This document shows, in pieces, positions 50,765-60,188 of a DNA stretch of 64,000 nt. Positions within the stretch are counted from its first letter, which is position 1. Every line of letters begins with the position of its first letter. The stretch spans positions 387,225 to 451,224 of the forward strand of contig NZ_CP061368.1 in assembly GCF_014725735.1 (NCBI RefSeq). Direction: 5' to 3'. The notes beneath the pieces were generated by a model. It had not been told where the DNA came from. It was given only the letters and a program-made list of their open reading frames with translations, and made no database searches. The stretch comes from Wenzhouxiangella sp. AB-CW3 (lineage in GTDB: Bacteria; Pseudomonadota; Gammaproteobacteria; Xanthomonadales; Wenzhouxiangellaceae). The position numbers and the translations under genes were made by a program.

Positions 50765-50899
50765 AGGGGGTCTCCGGGCTGAGGTGTCATGATGTCAGTC
50801 TATCGGTTTTGACCATTTCGGGGAATTGTCATTCCATACGTTTTCCTCACCGGGTTGGTTATCATGAGCCGTCCCCGACACCGATGCTTCCAGAATTCC

Positions 50900-53575
50900 A
50901 TGTCGAAGTCGCCACAACTGTGCCTGGTCGATGGCTCGTCCTATCTCTACCGCGCCTTTCATGCCCTGCCCAGCCTGACCAATGCCGAGGGTCAGCCCAC
51001 CGGCGCCATCTTCGGCGTGGCCAATATGCTCCGGCGGCTGACCGAGCAGCATGATCCCGAGCGCGTGGCGGTGATCTTCGACGCACCGGGCAAGACATTT
51101 CGGCACGAGGCCTTTGAGGACTACAAGGCCAATCGTCCGCCCATGCCCGACGAGCTCCGGAGCCAGATCGAGTCGCTGCACAAGCTGGTCGATGCCATGG
51201 GGTTGAAGCGTCTGGTCATCGAGGGCGTGGAGGCCGATGACGTGATCGCCACGCTGACCCGGCGCGCGCGTGCCGAGGGTCTCGATGTGCTGATCTCGTC
51301 GGGCGACAAGGACCTGGCCCAGCTGGTCGACGAGGGCGTGGTGCTCGAAGACACCATGCAGGACAAGCGCTACGATCCGGCCGCAGTCGAGGAAAAATTC
51401 GGCGTCGGCCCGGAACGCATTGCCGACCTGCTTGCGCTGACCGGCGACACGTCCGACAACATTCCCGGGGTCGAGAAGGTCGGACCCAAGACCGCGGCGA
51501 AGTGGCTCAACAAATTCGGCAGCCTGGACGAGCTGATCGAGCGAGCCGACGAGGTCGGCGGCAAGATCGGCGACAACCTGCGTGCCGCGCTCGACACCAT
51601 CCCGCTCTCGCGCGAGCTGGTGGCGCTGGACGAACAGGTCGAACTGGGGCTGGAGCTCGATGAACTGCGGCCGGCCGGGCCGGACAGGGCGCGCATGATC
51701 GAACTGCTCAAGCGATTCGGCTTCGCCACCTGGCTGAAGCAGTACAGCGAGGCCGATGAGATCGAGGAAAGTGAGCTGGTTGTCGAAACGGTGACCACCC
51801 GCGCCGGCCTCAAGGCGCTGGTCGAGACGTTGGAGCAGGCCGAACTGATCGCCTTCGACACCGAGACCACCAGCCTGGAAGCGCTTGAAGCCGACCTGGT
51901 CGGCTTTGCCTTCGCCGTCGAAAGCGGAAAGGCCTACTACGTGCCATTGGCCCATGCCGACCAGGACAACGAGTTCGATCGCGACGAGGCCGTCGAGGCG
52001 TTGCGCCCGGTGCTCGAGGATGCCGGGCGCGCCAAGGTCGGCCAGCACCTCAAGTACGACCTCAACGTGCTGGCCCGCGCCGGCGTCAGCCTGGCCGGTG
52101 TGGCCCACGACACCATGCTCGAGTCCTACCTCTACCATTCCACAGCCACGCGTCATGACATGGACTCGCTGGCCTCCCGCTACCTTGGCCGTCAGACCAC
52201 CTCGTTCGAGGCGGTGGCCGGCAAGGGCAAGAAGCAGGTCACCTTCGACCAGGTGCCGGTGGCCACGGCGGCCGACTATGCCGGCGAGGATGCCGAGGTC
52301 ACCCTGGCCCTGCACCGGCATCTGTGGCCGAAACTCGAGGCGCTCCACGGCCCCCGGCGCGTGTACGAGGAGCTGGAGATTCCGCTCATCCCCGTGCTCG
52401 CGCGCATGGAGCGCACCGGCGTGGCGCTGGACGTCGACCAGCTCGCCGCCCAGAGTCGCGAGCTGGAACAGCGCATGGACGAACTGATCGAACAGGCGCA
52501 TGCCGAAGCAGGGCAGGAATTCAAGCTGGGCTCGACCAAGCAGTTGCGCGAGATCCTGTTCGACAAGCTCGGGCTGGAACCGCGGCGCAAGACGCCGGGC
52601 GGGCAGCCGTCGACGGCCGAGGATGTGTTGCAGGAACTGGCCGCCGAGCATGCCTTGCCGCGCCTGATCCTCGAACATCGCGGCCTGGCCAAGCTCAAGA
52701 GCACCTACACCGACAGTCTGCCTGGAAAGGTCAACCGCGAGACCGGCCGTGTCCACACCCATTACCACCAGGCCATCGCCGCCACCGGCCGGCTGTCCTC
52801 GACCGACCCCAACCTGCAGAACATTCCCATTCGCAGACCCGAGGGCCGGCGCATCCGCAAGGCCTTCATTGCACCGGAAGGCACCACCTTGCTGGCGGCC
52901 GACTACTCGCAGATCGAGTTGCGCATCATGGCCCACCTGTCCGGCGACGAGCGCCTGCTCCAGGCCTTCGCCGACGGCGAGGACATTCACCAGGCCACCG
53001 CCGCGGAGGTGTTCGGTCTGGACATCGACCAGGTCGAGCCGGAGCAGCGCCGCGCGGCCAAGGCGATCAACTTCGGCCTGATGTACGGCATGAGCGCCTG
53101 GGGCCTGTCGCGCCAGCTCGAGTTGCCGCGCTCGGAAGCCGAGCACTATATCGAGCGTTACTTCGAGCGCTATCCCGGGGTGAAGGAATTCATGGACCGT
53201 ATCCGCAAACAGGCACGCGAGGACGGTTACGTCGAAACCCTGTTCGGGCGCCGGCTGTGGGCCGACGAGATCCGCTCGCGCAACCCGGCCCGTCGCCAGG
53301 CCGCCGAGCGCGCCGCCATCAACGCGCCCATGCAGGGCACGGCCGCCGACATCATCAAGCGCGCCATGATCGACGTCGATGCCTGGATTCAGAGCGAAAA
53401 AGTACCCGCGCGACTGGTCATGCAAGTGCATGATGAACTGGTGCTGGAGGTCGAAAACGGAGCGCTCGAGGCGGTCACTGCGGGCGTGGTCGAGCGCATG
53501 CAGTCCGCTGCCCGCCTCGATGTGACCCTGGAAGTCGATGCCGGCACCGGGAAAGACTGGGAAAGCGCGCACTAA
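50900..53575 (+). CDS. polA: DNA polymerase I
   Basis: 891 residues from ATG 50900; a start 12 codons earlier is possible, and neither has a strong ribosome site. The N-terminal 5'-3' exonuclease (LVDGSSYLYRAFHALPSL, GVEADDVIATL) is followed by a 3'-5' exonuclease with intact AFDTETTSLEA and HDTMLESYL. The polymerase domain contains DYSQIELRIMAHLSGDE (motif A), RRAAKAINFGLMYGMSAWGL (motif B) and QVHDELVLEVE (motif C). It fills gaps, removes primers and repairs DNA. Confidence 0.97.
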   Translation: MSKSPQLCLVDGSSYLYRAFHALPSLTNAEGQPTGAIFGVANMLRRLTEQHDPERVAVIFDAPGKTFRHEAFEDYKANRPPMPDELRSQIESLHKLVDAMGLKRLVIEGVEADDVIATLTRRARAEGLDVLISSGDKDLAQLVDEGVVLEDTMQDKRYDPAAVEEKFGVGPERIADLLALTGDTSDNIPGVEKVGPKTAAKWLNKFGSLDELIERADEVGGKIGDNLRAALDTIPLSRELVALDEQVELGLELDELRPAGPDRARMIELLKRFGFATWLKQYSEADEIEESELVVETVTTRAGLKALVETLEQAELIAFDTETTSLEALEADLVGFAFAVESGKAYYVPLAHADQDNEFDRDEAVEALRPVLEDAGRAKVGQHLKYDLNVLARAGVSLAGVAHDTMLESYLYHSTATRHDMDSLASRYLGRQTTSFEAVAGKGKKQVTFDQVPVATAADYAGEDAEVTLALHRHLWPKLEALHGPRRVYEELEIPLIPVLARMERTGVALDVDQLAAQSRELEQRMDELIEQAHAEAGQEFKLGSTKQLREILFDKLGLEPRRKTPGGQPSTAEDVLQELAAEHALPRLILEHRGLAKLKSTYTDSLPGKVNRETGRVHTHYHQAIAATGRLSSTDPNLQNIPIRRPEGRRIRKAFIAPEGTTLLAADYSQIELRIMAHLSGDERLLQAFADGEDIHQATAAEVFGLDIDQVEPEQRRAAKAINFGLMYGMSAWGLSRQLELPRSEAEHYIERYFERYPGVKEFMDRIRKQAREDGYVETLFGRRLWADEIRSRNPARRQAAERAAINAPMQGTAADIIKRAMIDVDAWIQSEKVPARLVMQVHDELVLEVENGALEAVTAGVVERMQSAARLDVTLEVDAGTGKDWESAH

Positions 53576-53664
53576 CCTTTTGATATTTAAGGAAAACAAA
53601 AAAAATTCGAAATTTTTTGCAACATTAGGAACTTTTCCGGAGAAAGCCCGGTCTGAACTATCGC

Positions 53665-53780
53665 CATGCGCATGGTTTGACTCACCTCCCTCCCTAGGTG
53701 AGTCATGAGGATTCGGTTACAGTCCCCAAACCGGATCCGACTACAGGCCCCGGGTCCTCCCTCGCCCGGGGCCTTTCTTT
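53665..53780 (+). ncRNA. Candidate small RNA downstream of polA with CU-rich loops
   Basis: A stretch of about 115 bases with no good protein frame. Hairpin 1 (53678-53687 / 53696-53705) is a perfect 10-bp stem TGACTCACCT/AGGTGAGTCA with loop CCCTCCCT. The rho-independent terminator at 53745-53780 has a second CU-rich loop, TCCTCCCTCG. Exposed CCUCCC motifs are typical of RNAs that pair with Shine-Dalgarno regions. The A/T tracts at 53597-53617 could serve as an UP element; the core promoter and 5' end are uncertain. The gene downstream of polA is the position of Spot 42 in E. coli and of ErsA in Pseudomonas. Confidence 0.65.
53745..53780 (+). terminator. Rho-independent terminator
   Basis: Perfect 10-bp stem AGGCCCCGGG/CCCGGGGCCT, 10-base loop, followed by TTTCTTT. 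It ends the candidate small RNA and possibly polA read-through. Confidence 0.9.
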
Positions 53781-54050
53781 AATCCCGAAATCGGTTGAGA
53801 GCTACTGCGCGCGCCTGCCGGCGTCCGGCAGCCACGCGCTCGCTACGCTCTCAAGCGATTTCACCTTACTTGCACGTGTCTGTGCTGATTCGGTTAATGG
53901 ACCTCCTTGGGTAGAATCATGAGGCTGGACAAATCTTGTGCTACCAACAGCCGGCCGCGATTTTCTTGACAATGATCAATTTCAGGCCGAGTATGTGTCC
54001 TGAACAGCAGGGGTAAAAAGGGGCAGAGCCTGACATAGGGAGCGTCGGCA
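53781..54050. other. Non-coding leader region of the giant surface protein
   Basis: No supported gene. It contains a small GC hairpin (GCCTGCCGGCGTCCGGCAGCC, 53814-53834 area), a TAGAAT at 53912-53917 without a matching -35, and a better promoter at 53966-53994. AGGGAG lies 12 bases before the GTG start of the next gene. Confidence 0.5.
53966..53994 (+). promoter_or_regulatory. Candidate sigma-70 promoter for the giant surface protein
   Basis: A perfect -35 TTGACA (53966-53971), a 17-base spacer and a weak -10 GAGTAT (53989-53994), 57 bases before the start codon. Confidence 0.45.
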
Positions 54051-57000
54051 GTGGCCTACCGTTTGCTAATCGTACTCCTTGCCCTTCATGGGGCTGCCGC
54101 GTTCGCGGTCGAATCGCAGTTCGATCTGCTTGTTGACCTTGATGGCAGCAGCTCGACCGGCTGCACTGTCTCCACCCCGGCCGGCCCCTTTGACGGCGTC
54201 GAGTCGATTCTCAGCACCTTTGTCGAAACCGATGGCAGTGACCAGGCGCGCGTGGTGCGGGTCGAGCGGCGCCATTGCATCGATCCGGCTGGCGATCAGT
54301 TCGGGCCGTCCGAGGTGGTGGATGCCGGGGAGTGGCCGGTTGGCATCGGCAACGGACTAGACGGCTTCAACGTCATCGAGACGTACCTGCCCCTGTCGCA
54401 TTCCGATCGCTTCAACGACCTGCGGCTGGCGCTGGTTGCCAGGGATGATTCAGGCAATGACTCGGTGCTGATGAGCGGCCTGGGTGGTGAGGATATCGTG
54501 CTGGACGGACTGCCGGCCATTCCTGTTCCACTGGCCGGAACCGTCGCCCTGGGTGTGCTGGCACTGCTACTGCTTCTGACCGGCCTGTTGATTCTCAATC
54601 GCCGGGGGCGTCTCACATTTGCCGCCCTGGCTTGCCTGGTGGCTGGAGGAGCCGCCGGGGCAGCCTGTGTTCTCGACGGCGAGGTGTTCAACTGGAGCAT
54701 GCAGGATCTGCTGGCCGAAACGGCGGCCAGCGACCCGGAAAACGGGGTTGATATCCGCGCCCTGTTTGCCCGTCGGGACGCTGGTGGCCAGCGCCTGTGC
54801 GTACGCATTGATGCCGCACTGCAGTTCACCACCGCCCCGCAGGCAGCCGATGACGACTATGTCACCGTGGAGACATCCTTGCTGGCGGTGTCGGCGGCTG
54901 ATGGCCTGCTGGACAATGACATCCTGGGCATCCCGGCCGCGGAACTGGCCAGTTTTGGTGGTGGCAGTCTGGGTGGTGAAGTGACGGACCACGGCGCCGG
55001 TACCAGTATCACGGTCGGAGCGGACGGCAATCTGAGCGTGCAGGCTGACGGCAGCTTCGAATTTCAGGCGGAAACCGGATTCGAGGGCGATTTCACATTC
55101 GAGTACCGGCTGGAGAACATCAGTGGCAGCAGCGATGCCACGGTCACCGTTCAGGTTCAGAGTCCGCCGGAGGCCGTTGACGATGACTACCAGGCAGAGG
55201 TCGGACAGCTCTTTGAGCAACCGGCTCCGGGGCTGCTGGCCAACGATGGTGGCGTGCCGGCTCCGGAAGTGGCCAGTTTTGGTGGGGGAGATCTGGGCGG
55301 GACAGCCACTGATCACGCTGCCGGCAGTAGTGTATCGATCGCCCCGGACGGCAACGTGGAAGTGCAGGCCGATGGCAGTCTGTCGTTCCTGCCTCCGACG
55401 GGCCACACCGGACCGTTCGAGTTCTACTACCAGGCCGAAAACCCTGCCGGCGATGATCAGGCGCGGGTTGAGGTCACCGTCAACCAGGCGCCGGAGGTCA
55501 CCTCAGACGACAGCCACACCTGCGAGGCGGGCACGACCTGCGAGTTCGATTTTTCGGCCACCGGCTATCCCGAGCCGGTCATCACTGTACAGGGCGACTT
55601 GCCCGATGGCGTCAGCTTCGATGCCGCGGACGAAAGCCTGACTGGCACACCGGACGCAGGCACCGGTGGTGTCTGGACGATGACCGTGACGGCCGCCAAC
55701 GGTATTGGCAGCGACGACGAGCAGAGTTTTACGCTGACCGTCAACGAGGCCCCGTCCATCACCTCGGATGACAACCATGCCTGTGAAGTGGGCAGCACCT
55801 GCAGTTTCACCTTTGAAGCCGACGGTCATCCGGCCGCGACCTTCGACCTGCCCGGCCTGCCGGCAGGCCTGAGCCTGGACAGCAATAGCGGTGAACTGTC
55901 CGGCACGCCCGATGCCGGTACCGGCGGCACCTATAACCTTACCCTGACGGCCGGCAACGGCATCGGCAGTGACGACACCCAGGCCTTCACGCTCACCGTC
56001 GGCGAGGCCCCGGAGATCACCTCGGCCGACAGCCACAGCTGCGAGGTGGGCAGCACTTGCAGTTTCACACTGACCGCGACGGGCCTGCCCGACCCCGAGT
56101 TCGACCTGCCCGACCTGCCCGATGGGCTGAGTCTGGACTCCAGTTCCGGAGAACTCAGTGGCACCCCGGACAATGGTACTGGCGGTGTCTACAACCTCAC
56201 TGCCACGGCCAGCAACAGTGTCGGCAGCGATCAACAGAGTTTTACGCTGACCGTCAACGAGGCCCCGTCCATCACCTCGGATGACAACCATGCCTGCGAA
56301 GTGGGCAGCACCTGCAGTTTCACCTTTGAAGCCGACGGTCATCCGGCCGCGACCTTCGACCTGCCCGGCCTGCCGGCAGGCCTGAGCCTGGACAGCAACA
56401 GCGGTGAACTGTCCGGCACGCCCGATGCCGGTACCGGCGGTACCTATAACCTCACCCTGACGGCCGGCAATGGCATTGGCAGCGACGATACCCAGACCTT
56501 CACGCTCACCGTCGGTGAGGTACCGGAGATCACCTCGGCCGACAATCACAGCTGCGAGGCCGGTAGTACCTGCAGCTTCAGCGTGACCGCCGACGGTCAC
56601 CCGGACCCGACCTTTAGCATCACCTCCGGCACACTGCCCGACGGACTCAGTCTGGCGGCCGACGGCACCCTGTCCGGCACACCCGATGCCGGCACCGGCG
56701 GGGTCTACAACCTGGAATTGACGGCCACCAATTCCATCGACAGTGACGAGCAACCCTTCACGCTCACCGTCAACGAGGCACCCACCATTACTTCGGCGGA
56801 CACGCTCAACTGCGAGATTGGCAGTGCCTGCGCCTTTACCGTGACGGCCGACGGCCATCCCGAACCGACCTTCAGCATCACGTCCGGCTCACTGCCCGAC
56901 GGGCTCAGCCTGGCGGCCGATGGCACCTTTTCGGGCACACCCGACGCGGGGACCGGCGGCGCCTACAACCTGGAGCTGACGGCCTCGAACGGCATCGGCA

Positions 57001-60000
57001 CGGATGGCACCCAGGCCTTCACGCTCAACGTTGGCCAGGTACCGTCCATCACCTCGGCCGACAATCACAGCTGCGAGGCCGGTAGTACCTGCAGCTTCAG
57101 CGTGACCGCTGACGGTCACCCGGACCCGACCTTCAGCATCACCTCCGGCACGTTGCCCGACGGACTCAGCCTGGCGGCCGACGGCACGCTGTCCGGCACG
57201 CCCGATGCCGGCACCGGCGGGGTCCACAACCTGGAATTGACGGCCACCAACACCATGGGAGATGACGACCAGTCGTTTGAACTGACCGTAACCGAGGCGC
57301 CACAGGCCAACGACAACCCCAGTGGCGGCATCCCGTCCGACTCGTCACCGGGCAGCATGCCTTACCATGGCAGTATCGACACAACACTGGTGGTATCCGA
57401 TGCCAACGGGGTACTGACCAACGACACCCTGGGCTTCCCCGCGGCCAGCATTGCCAATCCGACCCCGACCAGCGCCAATGGCGGCAGCGTCACTCTGAGT
57501 ACTGACGGCGGCTTCTCCTACATCCCACCCAGTGCAAGCTTCACCGGCATTGACACGTTTGAATACTGCCTGGACGACGGTGCCAATCCGCCCGACTGCG
57601 CCACGGTGTCGGTGGCCATCGGCGAGCGACCCGAGGCCAACGACCACAACTTCCCCGCAACCCTGTTGGGCAATACCCACGTTGACACCGCCCACGACAG
57701 CGGTTTCTCACTGTTCAGTCTGACCAGCGGCGACAGCCTGTCCATCTCGGTGGTCAGCGACACCAACGGCGATGCGGCCGTTAATGCCGCAACCGGCACC
57801 TTCAGTTTCAGTCCGGCGGCCGGTCACAACGGCTCGGCGTCATTCCAGTATTCGGCCAGCAACGGCTTTGGCAGTGCAACCGGTACCGTGACCTTCGATG
57901 TGCAGGGGATGGTCTGGTACTTCGACAACTCGGCTGCCAGTGGTGGTGACGGGCGTCTTGCCTCGCCGTTCAACAGCCTGGCCGGGGCGAGCTCCGCTGC
58001 AGCCGGCGAGGTGCTGTTCCTTCACACCGGATCAGGTGACTACACCGGCGGCATTACGTTGCTGGACAATCAGACCCTGGTTGGTCATGCCGATGTCGGT
58101 AATCTTGAAACCCATGCCGGCCAAGGCGCACCGGATGACAGTCCGCTGCCGCCGGTCTCGACCGAACCGGTGATAGCCAACGCCGGTGGTCATGGCATCG
58201 CCCTGGGTAGCGGCAATGCCATCCACGGTCTGCACGTGGGCGACACCAACGACTTTGGAGTATTCGGCGATGACTTCGGAACCCTGACCGTCTCGGGCGT
58301 GAGCATTACCGGCAGCGGTTCGGGGCTGCACCTGGATGACGGTACCGTTTCCGGCGCCGGTTTTGACCAGGTCAGCGCCACCACCGGCACGCACGGAATC
58401 CTGCTGACCGATGTTGCCGGCACGGTAGATCTCGGTGGTGGTGCGATCAGCGGCGCCACCACTGCTGCCCTGGAACTCAATGGCGGAACGGCCGACGTCA
58501 ACTACTCCGGCACCCTGCAGCCGGGCACCGGCGGGCGCCCGGCGCTGGTTCAGAACAAGAGCGGCGGCACGGTGGCGCTGAGCGGCGCGCTGGACAGTAC
58601 CGAGCAGGGCGTGCGGGTTGCCGACAACCCGGGCACGACCACACGCTTTGCCGGTGGCATGAATCTTTCCACCGGCAATAGCGTGGCTTTCCATGCCAGC
58701 GGAGACGGCACGGTGGAGGTCTGTGACGACAACCCGTGCAATCCCGCGGTCGACGGCGGCCTGATCAACAACCTGAGCACCACGACGGCCACTGCCCTGG
58801 AGGTGATCAACACCACCATCGGTGCCAACCATCTGGAGTTTCGCAGTATCTCTGCCGGCACCAGCAGCAACGGTCCCTCTCATGGCATTCTGCTGGACAC
58901 GACCGGGACCAGCGGTGGCTTGATCCTGCGCGGCACCGGGTCGAGTGGCAGCGGTGGACTGATCCGGAATACTGGTGATGTTTCCGTGCTGCTGCTCGAT
59001 ACCGCCGAGATCGAGCTGAATGACCTGGATGTTTTCAATAGCGGGAATGACGGTATCCGGGGTCAGGGCGTGCACAACTTCGCGCTGGTTGGCGCCAATC
59101 TCACCGACAACGGCGATGGGTTCGGAGAGAACGGCTTGCAGTTCGGTGCGCCAACGGGCAGCGTACCAGGCGTCACCGGAACGCTGACCATCACCGATAC
59201 CAACATCAGCGGTTCGGCCGGCAACAACGTTCATATCCGCAACACCTCCGGTACCCTGGACGCCATGAACGTCAGCGGCGGCAGCTTCAATGAAGTCAGC
59301 GGCACCACCGGCGCCAACTCCTTCTTGTTCGAGATGGCCGGAGATGCGGTGACCAACGCGGCCACGATTGCCGGATCAAGCTTCGAGGATAATTCGCCCC
59401 AGCGTGCGCTGGAGGTGATCGTGGGCGACAGCAGTACCTTGGCCGATTTCACGATCTCGAACAACATCTTCAGCAATAACGGCATTCACGCCAGTTTCTC
59501 GCAACAAAACACCGCTGACCTGACGCTGTCTGTGCTTGACAACGACATGCAACTTGCCGACCCGCTGCACGCCATCAATGTGTTCTCTTCGAGCAGTTCG
59601 ACCGGCGGCTCGGTCACCGGCACGATCGACGGCAATACCATTGGTGATTCGGCGGTCGCCAGTTCGGGGGCTCGCGGCAATGGTATCCGGGTCTTGATCC
59701 AGGGGCAGACCGAGGCGGTGTTGCTGATCAATGACAACACCCTTCGCCAGATCTGGGACGAGAACAATGCCGTGCGCGGCATAGAGGCTTCCTTCCGCGG
59801 CTCGACCGCGTCGGGCCTGCCGATTGTCCAGAGCGATATCACCATCACCAACAACGATGTCGATACCATGGCGCCAGACACGGAATTCCCCTTGGCGGCT
59901 ATCTTCGTGTCGGCCGACGACCAGGGAAGCCCGGCCCGGGTGCGCGCGGATATTCGCGATAATATCGCCCAGAACAGCGTTGGTGGCGGTAGTTGGGAAC

Positions 60001-60188
60001 CTCCCGATTTCGATGGCAATGGCGCACACTTGGTCTTTACCGAGGAAGTTCAACAGAACGAGGAGGGGCAACTGGTTGACACGTTGAACGGCGCTGATGC
60101 ACAGACCCAAATGGAGAACAACAATTCGGCCACGGTTTATGCGCCGCCGGAAATCACCCTGATTCCGGGGCCGATCAACACACCCTGA
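54051..60188 (+). CDS. Giant surface protein: cadherin-like/Ig repeats plus beta-helix
   Basis: 2045 residues. Signal peptide 1-18. Residues about 157-187 (IPVPLAGTVALGVLALLLLL, then LNRRG) look like an IPTL-type sorting/anchor segment placed internally. Two cadherin/VCBS-like domains (about 261-477, DDDY...DGSF.F) precede seven He_PIG/Ig-like repeats of about 86 residues (478-1082), each with two Cys (HxCExGSTC) and an LSGTPDAGTGG turn. Two more cadherin-like domains (1083-1283) lead to a right-handed beta-helix C-terminus (ITGSGSGLHLDDG, LTDNGDGFGENGLQFG). Probably an adhesin or exported surface polymer. It starts with GTG. Confidence 0.82.
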   Translation: MAYRLLIVLLALHGAAAFAVESQFDLLVDLDGSSSTGCTVSTPAGPFDGVESILSTFVETDGSDQARVVRVERRHCIDPAGDQFGPSEVVDAGEWPVGIGNGLDGFNVIETYLPLSHSDRFNDLRLALVARDDSGNDSVLMSGLGGEDIVLDGLPAIPVPLAGTVALGVLALLLLLTGLLILNRRGRLTFAALACLVAGGAAGAACVLDGEVFNWSMQDLLAETAASDPENGVDIRALFARRDAGGQRLCVRIDAALQFTTAPQAADDDYVTVETSLLAVSAADGLLDNDILGIPAAELASFGGGSLGGEVTDHGAGTSITVGADGNLSVQADGSFEFQAETGFEGDFTFEYRLENISGSSDATVTVQVQSPPEAVDDDYQAEVGQLFEQPAPGLLANDGGVPAPEVASFGGGDLGGTATDHAAGSSVSIAPDGNVEVQADGSLSFLPPTGHTGPFEFYYQAENPAGDDQARVEVTVNQAPEVTSDDSHTCEAGTTCEFDFSATGYPEPVITVQGDLPDGVSFDAADESLTGTPDAGTGGVWTMTVTAANGIGSDDEQSFTLTVNEAPSITSDDNHACEVGSTCSFTFEADGHPAATFDLPGLPAGLSLDSNSGELSGTPDAGTGGTYNLTLTAGNGIGSDDTQAFTLTVGEAPEITSADSHSCEVGSTCSFTLTATGLPDPEFDLPDLPDGLSLDSSSGELSGTPDNGTGGVYNLTATASNSVGSDQQSFTLTVNEAPSITSDDNHACEVGSTCSFTFEADGHPAATFDLPGLPAGLSLDSNSGELSGTPDAGTGGTYNLTLTAGNGIGSDDTQTFTLTVGEVPEITSADNHSCEAGSTCSFSVTADGHPDPTFSITSGTLPDGLSLAADGTLSGTPDAGTGGVYNLELTATNSIDSDEQPFTLTVNEAPTITSADTLNCEIGSACAFTVTADGHPEPTFSITSGSLPDGLSLAADGTFSGTPDAGTGGAYNLELTASNGIGTDGTQAFTLNVGQVPSITSADNHSCEAGSTCSFSVTADGHPDPTFSITSGTLPDGLSLAADGTLSGTPDAGTGGVHNLELTATNTMGDDDQSFELTVTEAPQANDNPSGGIPSDSSPGSMPYHGSIDTTLVVSDANGVLTNDTLGFPAASIANPTPTSANGGSVTLSTDGGFSYIPPSASFTGIDTFEYCLDDGANPPDCATVSVAIGERPEANDHNFPATLLGNTHVDTAHDSGFSLFSLTSGDSLSISVVSDTNGDAAVNAATGTFSFSPAAGHNGSASFQYSASNGFGSATGTVTFDVQGMVWYFDNSAASGGDGRLASPFNSLAGASSAAAGEVLFLHTGSGDYTGGITLLDNQTLVGHADVGNLETHAGQGAPDDSPLPPVSTEPVIANAGGHGIALGSGNAIHGLHVGDTNDFGVFGDDFGTLTVSGVSITGSGSGLHLDDGTVSGAGFDQVSATTGTHGILLTDVAGTVDLGGGAISGATTAALELNGGTADVNYSGTLQPGTGGRPALVQNKSGGTVALSGALDSTEQGVRVADNPGTTTRFAGGMNLSTGNSVAFHASGDGTVEVCDDNPCNPAVDGGLINNLSTTTATALEVINTTIGANHLEFRSISAGTSSNGPSHGILLDTTGTSGGLILRGTGSSGSGGLIRNTGDVSVLLLDTAEIELNDLDVFNSGNDGIRGQGVHNFALVGANLTDNGDGFGENGLQFGAPTGSVPGVTGTLTITDTNISGSAGNNVHIRNTSGTLDAMNVSGGSFNEVSGTTGANSFLFEMAGDAVTNAATIAGSSFEDNSPQRALEVIVGDSSTLADFTISNNIFSNNGIHASFSQQNTADLTLSVLDNDMQLADPLHAINVFSSSSSTGGSVTGTIDGNTIGDSAVASSGARGNGIRVLIQGQTEAVLLINDNTLRQIWDENNAVRGIEASFRGSTASGLPIVQSDITITNNDVDTMAPDTEFPLAAIFVSADDQGSPARVRADIRDNIAQNSVGGGSWEPPDFDGNGAHLVFTEEVQQNEEGQLVDTLNGADAQTQMENNNSATVYAPPEITLIPGPINTP
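55485..57297 (+). repeat. Seven tandem Ig-like repeat units inside the giant gene
   Basis: Units of about 255 bases. Units 2 and 4 encode the same protein sequence over about 75 residues and are offset by 513 bases; units 5 and 7 are nearly identical and offset by 519. This shows duplication of two-unit blocks and a substrate for length change by recombination. Confidence 0.85.

Follow-up and report, generated by a model that had tools for sequence, protein, structure and literature searches.

A predicted small RNA gene with C-rich loops and a sigma-E-type promoter downstream of polA in Wenzhouxiangella sp. AB-CW3

The stretch of DNA analyzed here (the window, 64,000 nucleotides in length) belongs to the complete 3.84 Mb genome of Wenzhouxiangella sp. 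AB-CW3 and contains polA, the gene for DNA polymerase I (906 amino acids, positions 50855 to 53575, forward strand), which was recognized by its open reading frame, a Pfam DNA_pol_A match of 537 bits, and the 5'-3' and 3'-5' exonuclease domains. 3' of the polA stop at position 53575 and on the same strand we predict a small RNA gene of about 120 nucleotides (53658 to 53782, forward strand). A sequence-only reading of this DNA had placed an RNA candidate at 53597 to 53780; the interval covers the RNA but begins about 60 nucleotides ahead of the likely transcript, in an A/T-rich stretch upstream of the promoter. The folding energy of positions 53656 to 53784 is −60.3 kcal/mol compared to −36.5 ± 3.6 kcal/mol in shuffled sequences (z = −6.5), and 0 out of 200 shuffles were as good. 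The terminator taken alone is not unusual, with one terminator-like site found in the region and 0.8 expected from shuffles, unlike the RNA as a whole, whose fold lies far below the shuffles. The terminator scan of the region gave no second terminator-like site between polA and the RNA, and no Rfam family except one tRNA reached its threshold within the 64-kb window.

Beyond the terminator the palindrome CTGCCGGCGTCCGGCAG follows shortly at 53815 to 53831, with no further copy within the 64-kb window. GC-rich inverted elements downstream of the RNA are also present in the relatives L005-L008. The neighboring open reading frame (54051 to 60188, forward strand, 2045 amino acids) carries He_PIG and Big_9 Ig-like domains and probably encodes a large surface or secreted protein.

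The computed fold of the RNA contains three stable stem-loops exposing the loops CCCUCCCU, ACAGUCCCCA and CCUCCCUC, the third stem-loop being the terminator. Stem-loop 1 (53678 to 53705, forward strand) is composed of TGACTCACCT, the loop CCCTCCCT and AGGTGAGTCA with 10 perfect pairs, exactly the perfect first hairpin that had been described before. Stem-loop 2 (53709 to 53738, forward strand; GGATTCGGTT, ACAGTCCCCA, AACCGGATCC) presents UCCCC in its loop and is nearly invariant in sequence; it had escaped the sequence-only reading, which regarded the RNA as consisting of two hairpins. Stem-loop 3 (53745 to 53780, forward strand), an intrinsic terminator found both by folding and by the terminator scan, comprises AGGCCCCGGGT, CCTCCCTC and GCCCGGGGCCT at 53745 to 53774, followed by TTCTTT in a U-rich tail. 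The terminator had been noticed correctly, but the loop then assigned to it, TCCTCCCTCG, is the computed 8-nucleotide loop plus its closing U-G pair. The loop motifs CCCUCCCU, GUCCCCA and CCUCCCUC have an unpaired probability above 0.9 in the ensemble. Ahead of stem-loop 1 the 5' palindrome CCATGCGCATGG (53664 to 53675, forward strand) could form a small hairpin and is kept in most of the genus according to the family alignment.

Upstream of the RNA a motif scan identified a sigma-E-type promoter, GGAACTT-N16-GTCTGA (53628 to 53656, forward strand); no promoter had been given by the earlier reading. The sigma-E consensus reads GGAACTT, about 16 nucleotides and GTCnnA, to which the site fits near-perfectly. 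Few bases remain to the expected RNA start, and the putative 5' end would lie within a few bases downstream of the −10 box. The promoter is preceded by an A/T-rich stretch (53596 to 53627, forward strand; read directly) that is possibly UP-element-like, and A/T runs are likewise placed in most relatives. A sigma-70 promoter scan of the region found none. In the 64-kb window the pattern GAACTT-N15-18-TCTGA has a single occurrence, with 0.08 expected. Genome-wide, GAACTT-N16-17-TCTNA is not enriched, with three matches compared to eight for the reversed control; the pattern alone is therefore uninformative at this scale, and it is the conservation that is informative. The boxes are kept in all 22 Wenzhouxiangellaceae loci: the −35 box is GGAACTT in 19, GAAACTT in two and TGAACTT in one, GTC is present in 22 out of 22, and the spacer of 15 or 16 nucleotides is near random in sequence save at its edges. 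RpoE is encoded in the same genome away from the RNA (332.8 bits, above the curated cut-off, with sigma-70 domains), and we read the open reading frames after rpoE as RseA- and RseB-like. The window RNA thus shares with sigma-E-dependent sRNAs both the motif and an encoded RpoE, and its transcription would be under RpoE control.

DNA matches to the RNA were found in 23 out of 61 relatives, nearly all immediately 3' of polA, and the records of named Wenzhouxiangella species, the closest named relatives, bear the same element; W. sediminis and W. limi are two species that have the locus. In an alignment of 21 sequences hardly any change is seen in the loops, whereas helix 1 varies with compensation, with compensatory changes at 8 out of its 10 pairs. 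Over the whole structure 35 double-change cells were counted; shuffles gave 11.3, and slid controls never more than 6. The compensation is strong, although it carries no formal probability because sequence counts are not independent events. In helices 2 and 3 there is too little variation for covariation to speak for or against them.

To follow the RNA beyond the family two covariance models were built in this analysis, R1 from the Wenzhouxiangellaceae RNA family alone and R2 from 36 distant copies without any Wenzhouxiangellaceae sequence; their E-values are rough. The window RNA is matched by R2 with 100.9 bits (E 1.6e-34). R2 is not entirely independent of R1, since its sequences were first picked out by R1, while the locus and the promoter were used in neither and represent independent checks. 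R1 hits occur in 78 out of 272 gammaproteobacterial genera, and R2 hits in 206 out of 369 sampled gammaproteobacterial genomes at E≤1e-3, with 174 at E≤1e-9. Among the best 30 class-level R2 loci, 28 adjoin polA and/or engB. The strict sigma-E pattern lies just upstream of 20 out of 45 class-level hits, compared to 1 among 2336 control windows taken from these loci; its spacer is 16 in 18 of these 20, and looser forms are found upstream of many of the remaining hits. Hits near E 1e-4 are not trusted, because one extra weak R2 hit in the window's genome is a tRNA.

The arrangement at the locus varies across the class. The RNA is convergent to polA in some genomes (L055, L059, L060, L082) and lies beside engB without polA nearby in others. 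Tandem copies in or near the polA-engB gap (four in L065/L144, two each in L060, L070 and L073) point to an increase in gene dosage in certain lineages. In Alcanivorax dieselolei a dRNA-seq transcript, sRNA4758272, adjoins a gene for a ribosome-biogenesis GTP-binding protein and is conserved across the genus, with two copies in some cases (PMC9788540); this transcript may represent a relative that is expressed. Visual inspection of the engB-linked loci did not show the Na+/H+ antiporter neighbor that is reported next to an Alcanivorax sRNA. A further C-loop hairpin, not linked to the first, lies elsewhere in the window's genome (L179:1501-1597, reverse strand; G000:C1:1551319-1551415; R2 E 4.9e-7). 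It has a terminator, a TTGACA/TAAAAT-like promoter immediately precedes it, and it may be one more sRNA of the C-loop kind.

The best-studied relative is sX13. The Rfam model for sX13 (RF02232) scores 30.0 bits on the window (E 5.5e-4 for 401 bases) against a gathering cut-off of 50, so we regard the window RNA as an sX13 homologue and not as a curated member. Conversely, 30 loci found with the sX13 model, of which 20 lie above the Rfam cut-off, are all recovered by R1 at the same place (30 out of 30, E≤2.8e-6) and by R2 (30 out of 30, E≤1.7e-9). The sequence-only reading had named sX13 and ErsA as similarly placed, and indeed 25 out of the 30 sX13-model loci adjoin polA, as does an ErsA locus. 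The action of sX13 is reported to be Hfq-independent: its C-rich loops repress mRNAs that carry G-rich motifs close to their start codons, and the RNA becomes more abundant at high salt and at 37 °C (PMC3771888).

With regard to potential targets, G-rich sites before ATG number 70 compared to 24 in the reversed control and are common for ordinary reasons. A partial list of GGGAGGG sites before ATG consists mostly of chance or plain Shine-Dalgarno sites; two genes were kept from it, in the first place a TonB-dependent receptor gene and in the second a T2SSM_b type II secretion gene. The ribosome site of the receptor gene (L185:1501-1520, window's genome), GGGAGGGA, is an exact 8-nucleotide complement of UCCCUCCC in loop 1. 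The predicted duplex of GGGAGGGA with the loop-1 segment alone amounts to about −22 kcal/mol, ignoring the cost of opening the closed stem. We predict the receptor mRNA as a candidate target. The window RNA complements the Shine-Dalgarno core still more closely than sX13 does. As a conserved target hfq was considered and rejected, since a GGGG motif is missing at the hfq start in the window's genome.

These observations suggest a mechanism. Under envelope stress sigma-E (RpoE) would transcribe the RNA of about 120 nucleotides from GGAACTT-N16-GTCTGA, and its three rigid stem-loops would keep the short C-rich loops single-stranded. The loops could then base-pair with target mRNAs at ribosome-binding or enhancer sites rich in G (GGGAGG/GGGG) and block translation, a mechanism that has been shown for sX13 in Xanthomonas. 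By analogy with other sigma-E sRNAs and with ErsA (oprD), the likely targets may include mRNAs of outer-membrane proteins. The window RNA would represent one lineage of a polA-engB C-loop sRNA across Gammaproteobacteria, of which sX13 and ErsA also appear to be members.

We therefore favor, with a probability of roughly 80%, a free-standing sRNA, activated by sigma-E, that acts in trans to repress mRNAs whose ribosome sites are G-rich, and that is one lineage of the polA-engB C-loop sRNA. The sRNA gene after polA, with loops that would pair with ribosome sites, which the sequence-only reading had proposed is also our best reading, on account of its conservation 3' of polA in Wenzhouxiangellaceae, the compensatory changes, a conserved promoter of its own and the sX13 homology seen by covariance models. 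We consider it quite improbable that the RNA is merely a structured 3' untranslated region of polA with a terminator and no regulatory role. Its position directly 3' of polA on the same strand, with a terminator at its end and no other such site between, would be in agreement with that view, but its own promoter is conserved in 22 out of 22 loci, the loops stay constant while the stems change with compensation, the RNA elsewhere stands convergent to polA or beside engB in the absence of polA, and both sX13 and ErsA, its relatives, have been studied as discrete sRNAs. A real anti-ribosome-site sRNA that resembles sX13, ErsA and the class-level hits through convergence is unlikely in our estimation. 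C-loop hairpins that pair with G-rich ribosome sites would in that case have arisen repeatedly, and the letters in common are indeed mainly those of the C-rich loops and the terminator; the ar14 model outscores sX13 on the window, the alphaproteobacterial R2 hits examined do not lie beside polA or engB, and the weak R2 hits include a tRNA. Convergence leaves unexplained, however, the common locus (polA and/or engB adjoin 28 of the 30 best loci), the common promoter type and the graded intermediates across the order Xanthomonadales.

Several stable hairpins with repeated loop motifs resemble in outline a protein-binding decoy, that is, a sponge for CsrA/RsmA or for Hfq in place of an mRNA-pairing RNA, and to this explanation we attach very little weight. 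CsrA-type sponges carry GGA in their loops, whereas the loops of the window RNA are C-rich and without GGA. The action of sX13, furthermore, is by pairing and takes place without Hfq (PMC3771888). A Spot 42 homologue is scarcely credible to us: the window RNA occupies the same position 3' of polA as E. coli spf, but at E≤10 neither did the Spot 42 model match in the window nor R2 in the E. coli polA-spf-yihA region, and the repression of spf by cAMP-CRP (PMC3295665) contrasts with the sigma-E-like site found here. The synteny with Spot 42 pointed out by the sequence-only reading accordingly applies to the position and does not extend to covariance with the E. coli spf locus.

The window RNA is, with strong computational support, the product of a conserved sRNA gene; it is homologous to sX13 while lying outside the curated family, and it belongs to a known kind of regulator. 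More general and less expected is the finding that a C-loop sRNA, often with a sigma-E-type promoter, is present in about half of the sampled Gammaproteobacteria, with the best examples almost always at polA-engB. The conserved sigma-E-type site ties many of these RNAs to envelope stress, a link that Xanthomonas sX13 alone would not reveal, and the result connects Rfam families that have no common clan in the search tables. A testable prediction arises from this: one stress-induced RNA would dampen translation from G-rich ribosome sites, possibly including those of outer-membrane receptors.

Compared to sX13, the window RNA has the same place directly 3' of polA, three stem-loops with C-rich loops of which the last is the terminator, a length near 115 nucleotides and a host of the same order in the genome set, and the covariance models match each other's loci. 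They differ in that loop 1 of the window RNA is CCCUCCCU and not a CCCC motif, in that the sX13 target hfq lacks the GGGG motif near its start in the window's genome, and in the promoter, which is of sigma-E type here while the Xanthomonas sX13 loci (among L113-L142) are without the boxes. Other Xanthomonadales keep partial or full sigma-E boxes (e.g. GAACTT...GTCTAC in L132 and L133); the sigma-E promoter thus seems to have been lost or replaced in Xanthomonas sX13.

ErsA (Pseudomon-1, RF01719) is located between polA and engB (PMC5819304; PMC8575079) and has in common with the window RNA this locus, a sigma-E/AlgU-type promoter and a C-rich terminator loop. The sigma-22 (AlgU, sigma-E-like) promoter motif typical of ErsA is present in 22 out of 22 loci of the window family, for which sigma-22-type dependence is predicted; the Pseudomonas ErsA locus (121 bits with the Rfam ErsA model) has GAACTT...GTCATA upstream, in line with its published sigma-22 dependence (PMC5819304). 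R2 matches this locus weakly (E 2.2e-7), and the Rfam ErsA model (gathering score 50 bits) gave no match on the window stretch at E≤10. ErsA differs by a long unpaired 5' region with two stem-loops, compared to the three stem-loops and short 5' palindrome of the window RNA, and by activity that is Hfq-dependent for several targets (PMC8575079).

The Burkholderia anti-hemB RNA (RF02837) matches many class-level relatives (E 1e-3 to 1e-7) via the CCGCU..CUCCCUGAGCGG loop, while its model did not match on the window at E≤10. Class-level copies beside engB with polA not nearby (L218-L224, L227, L231, L238, L239) have a CCCGCTT..CTCCCTGAGCGGG loop that resembles this Rfam family. The alphaproteobacterial ar14 (RF02344) likewise has three hairpins and CCUCCUCCC-type loops, and its model reaches 43.0 bits on the window, below the gathering cut-off of 58.8. 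As 0 out of five alphaproteobacterial R2 hits examined lie beside polA or engB, these were treated as unrelated, and the ar14 resemblance is probably a likeness of function rather than of descent.

Spot 42 fills the same slot, 3' of polA and before engB/yihA, but under cAMP-CRP control, and has a role in carbon metabolism (PMC3295665; PMC3771888). In the open-access literature we found no paper naming both ErsA and sX13, and an earlier unification elsewhere is possible. We hold it to be rather probable that sX13, ErsA, the Burkholderia anti-hemB RNA and the window RNA descend from a single ancient sRNA, present in the ancestor of most Gammaproteobacteria, which would have originated at polA-engB under sigma-E and whose C-rich loops would repress G-rich ribosome sites. 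Individual lineages would later have changed the promoter (Xanthomonas sX13), the 5' part (ErsA) or, in the tandem arrays, the copy number. In the lineage of Spot 42 the same slot would be filled by a different RNA.
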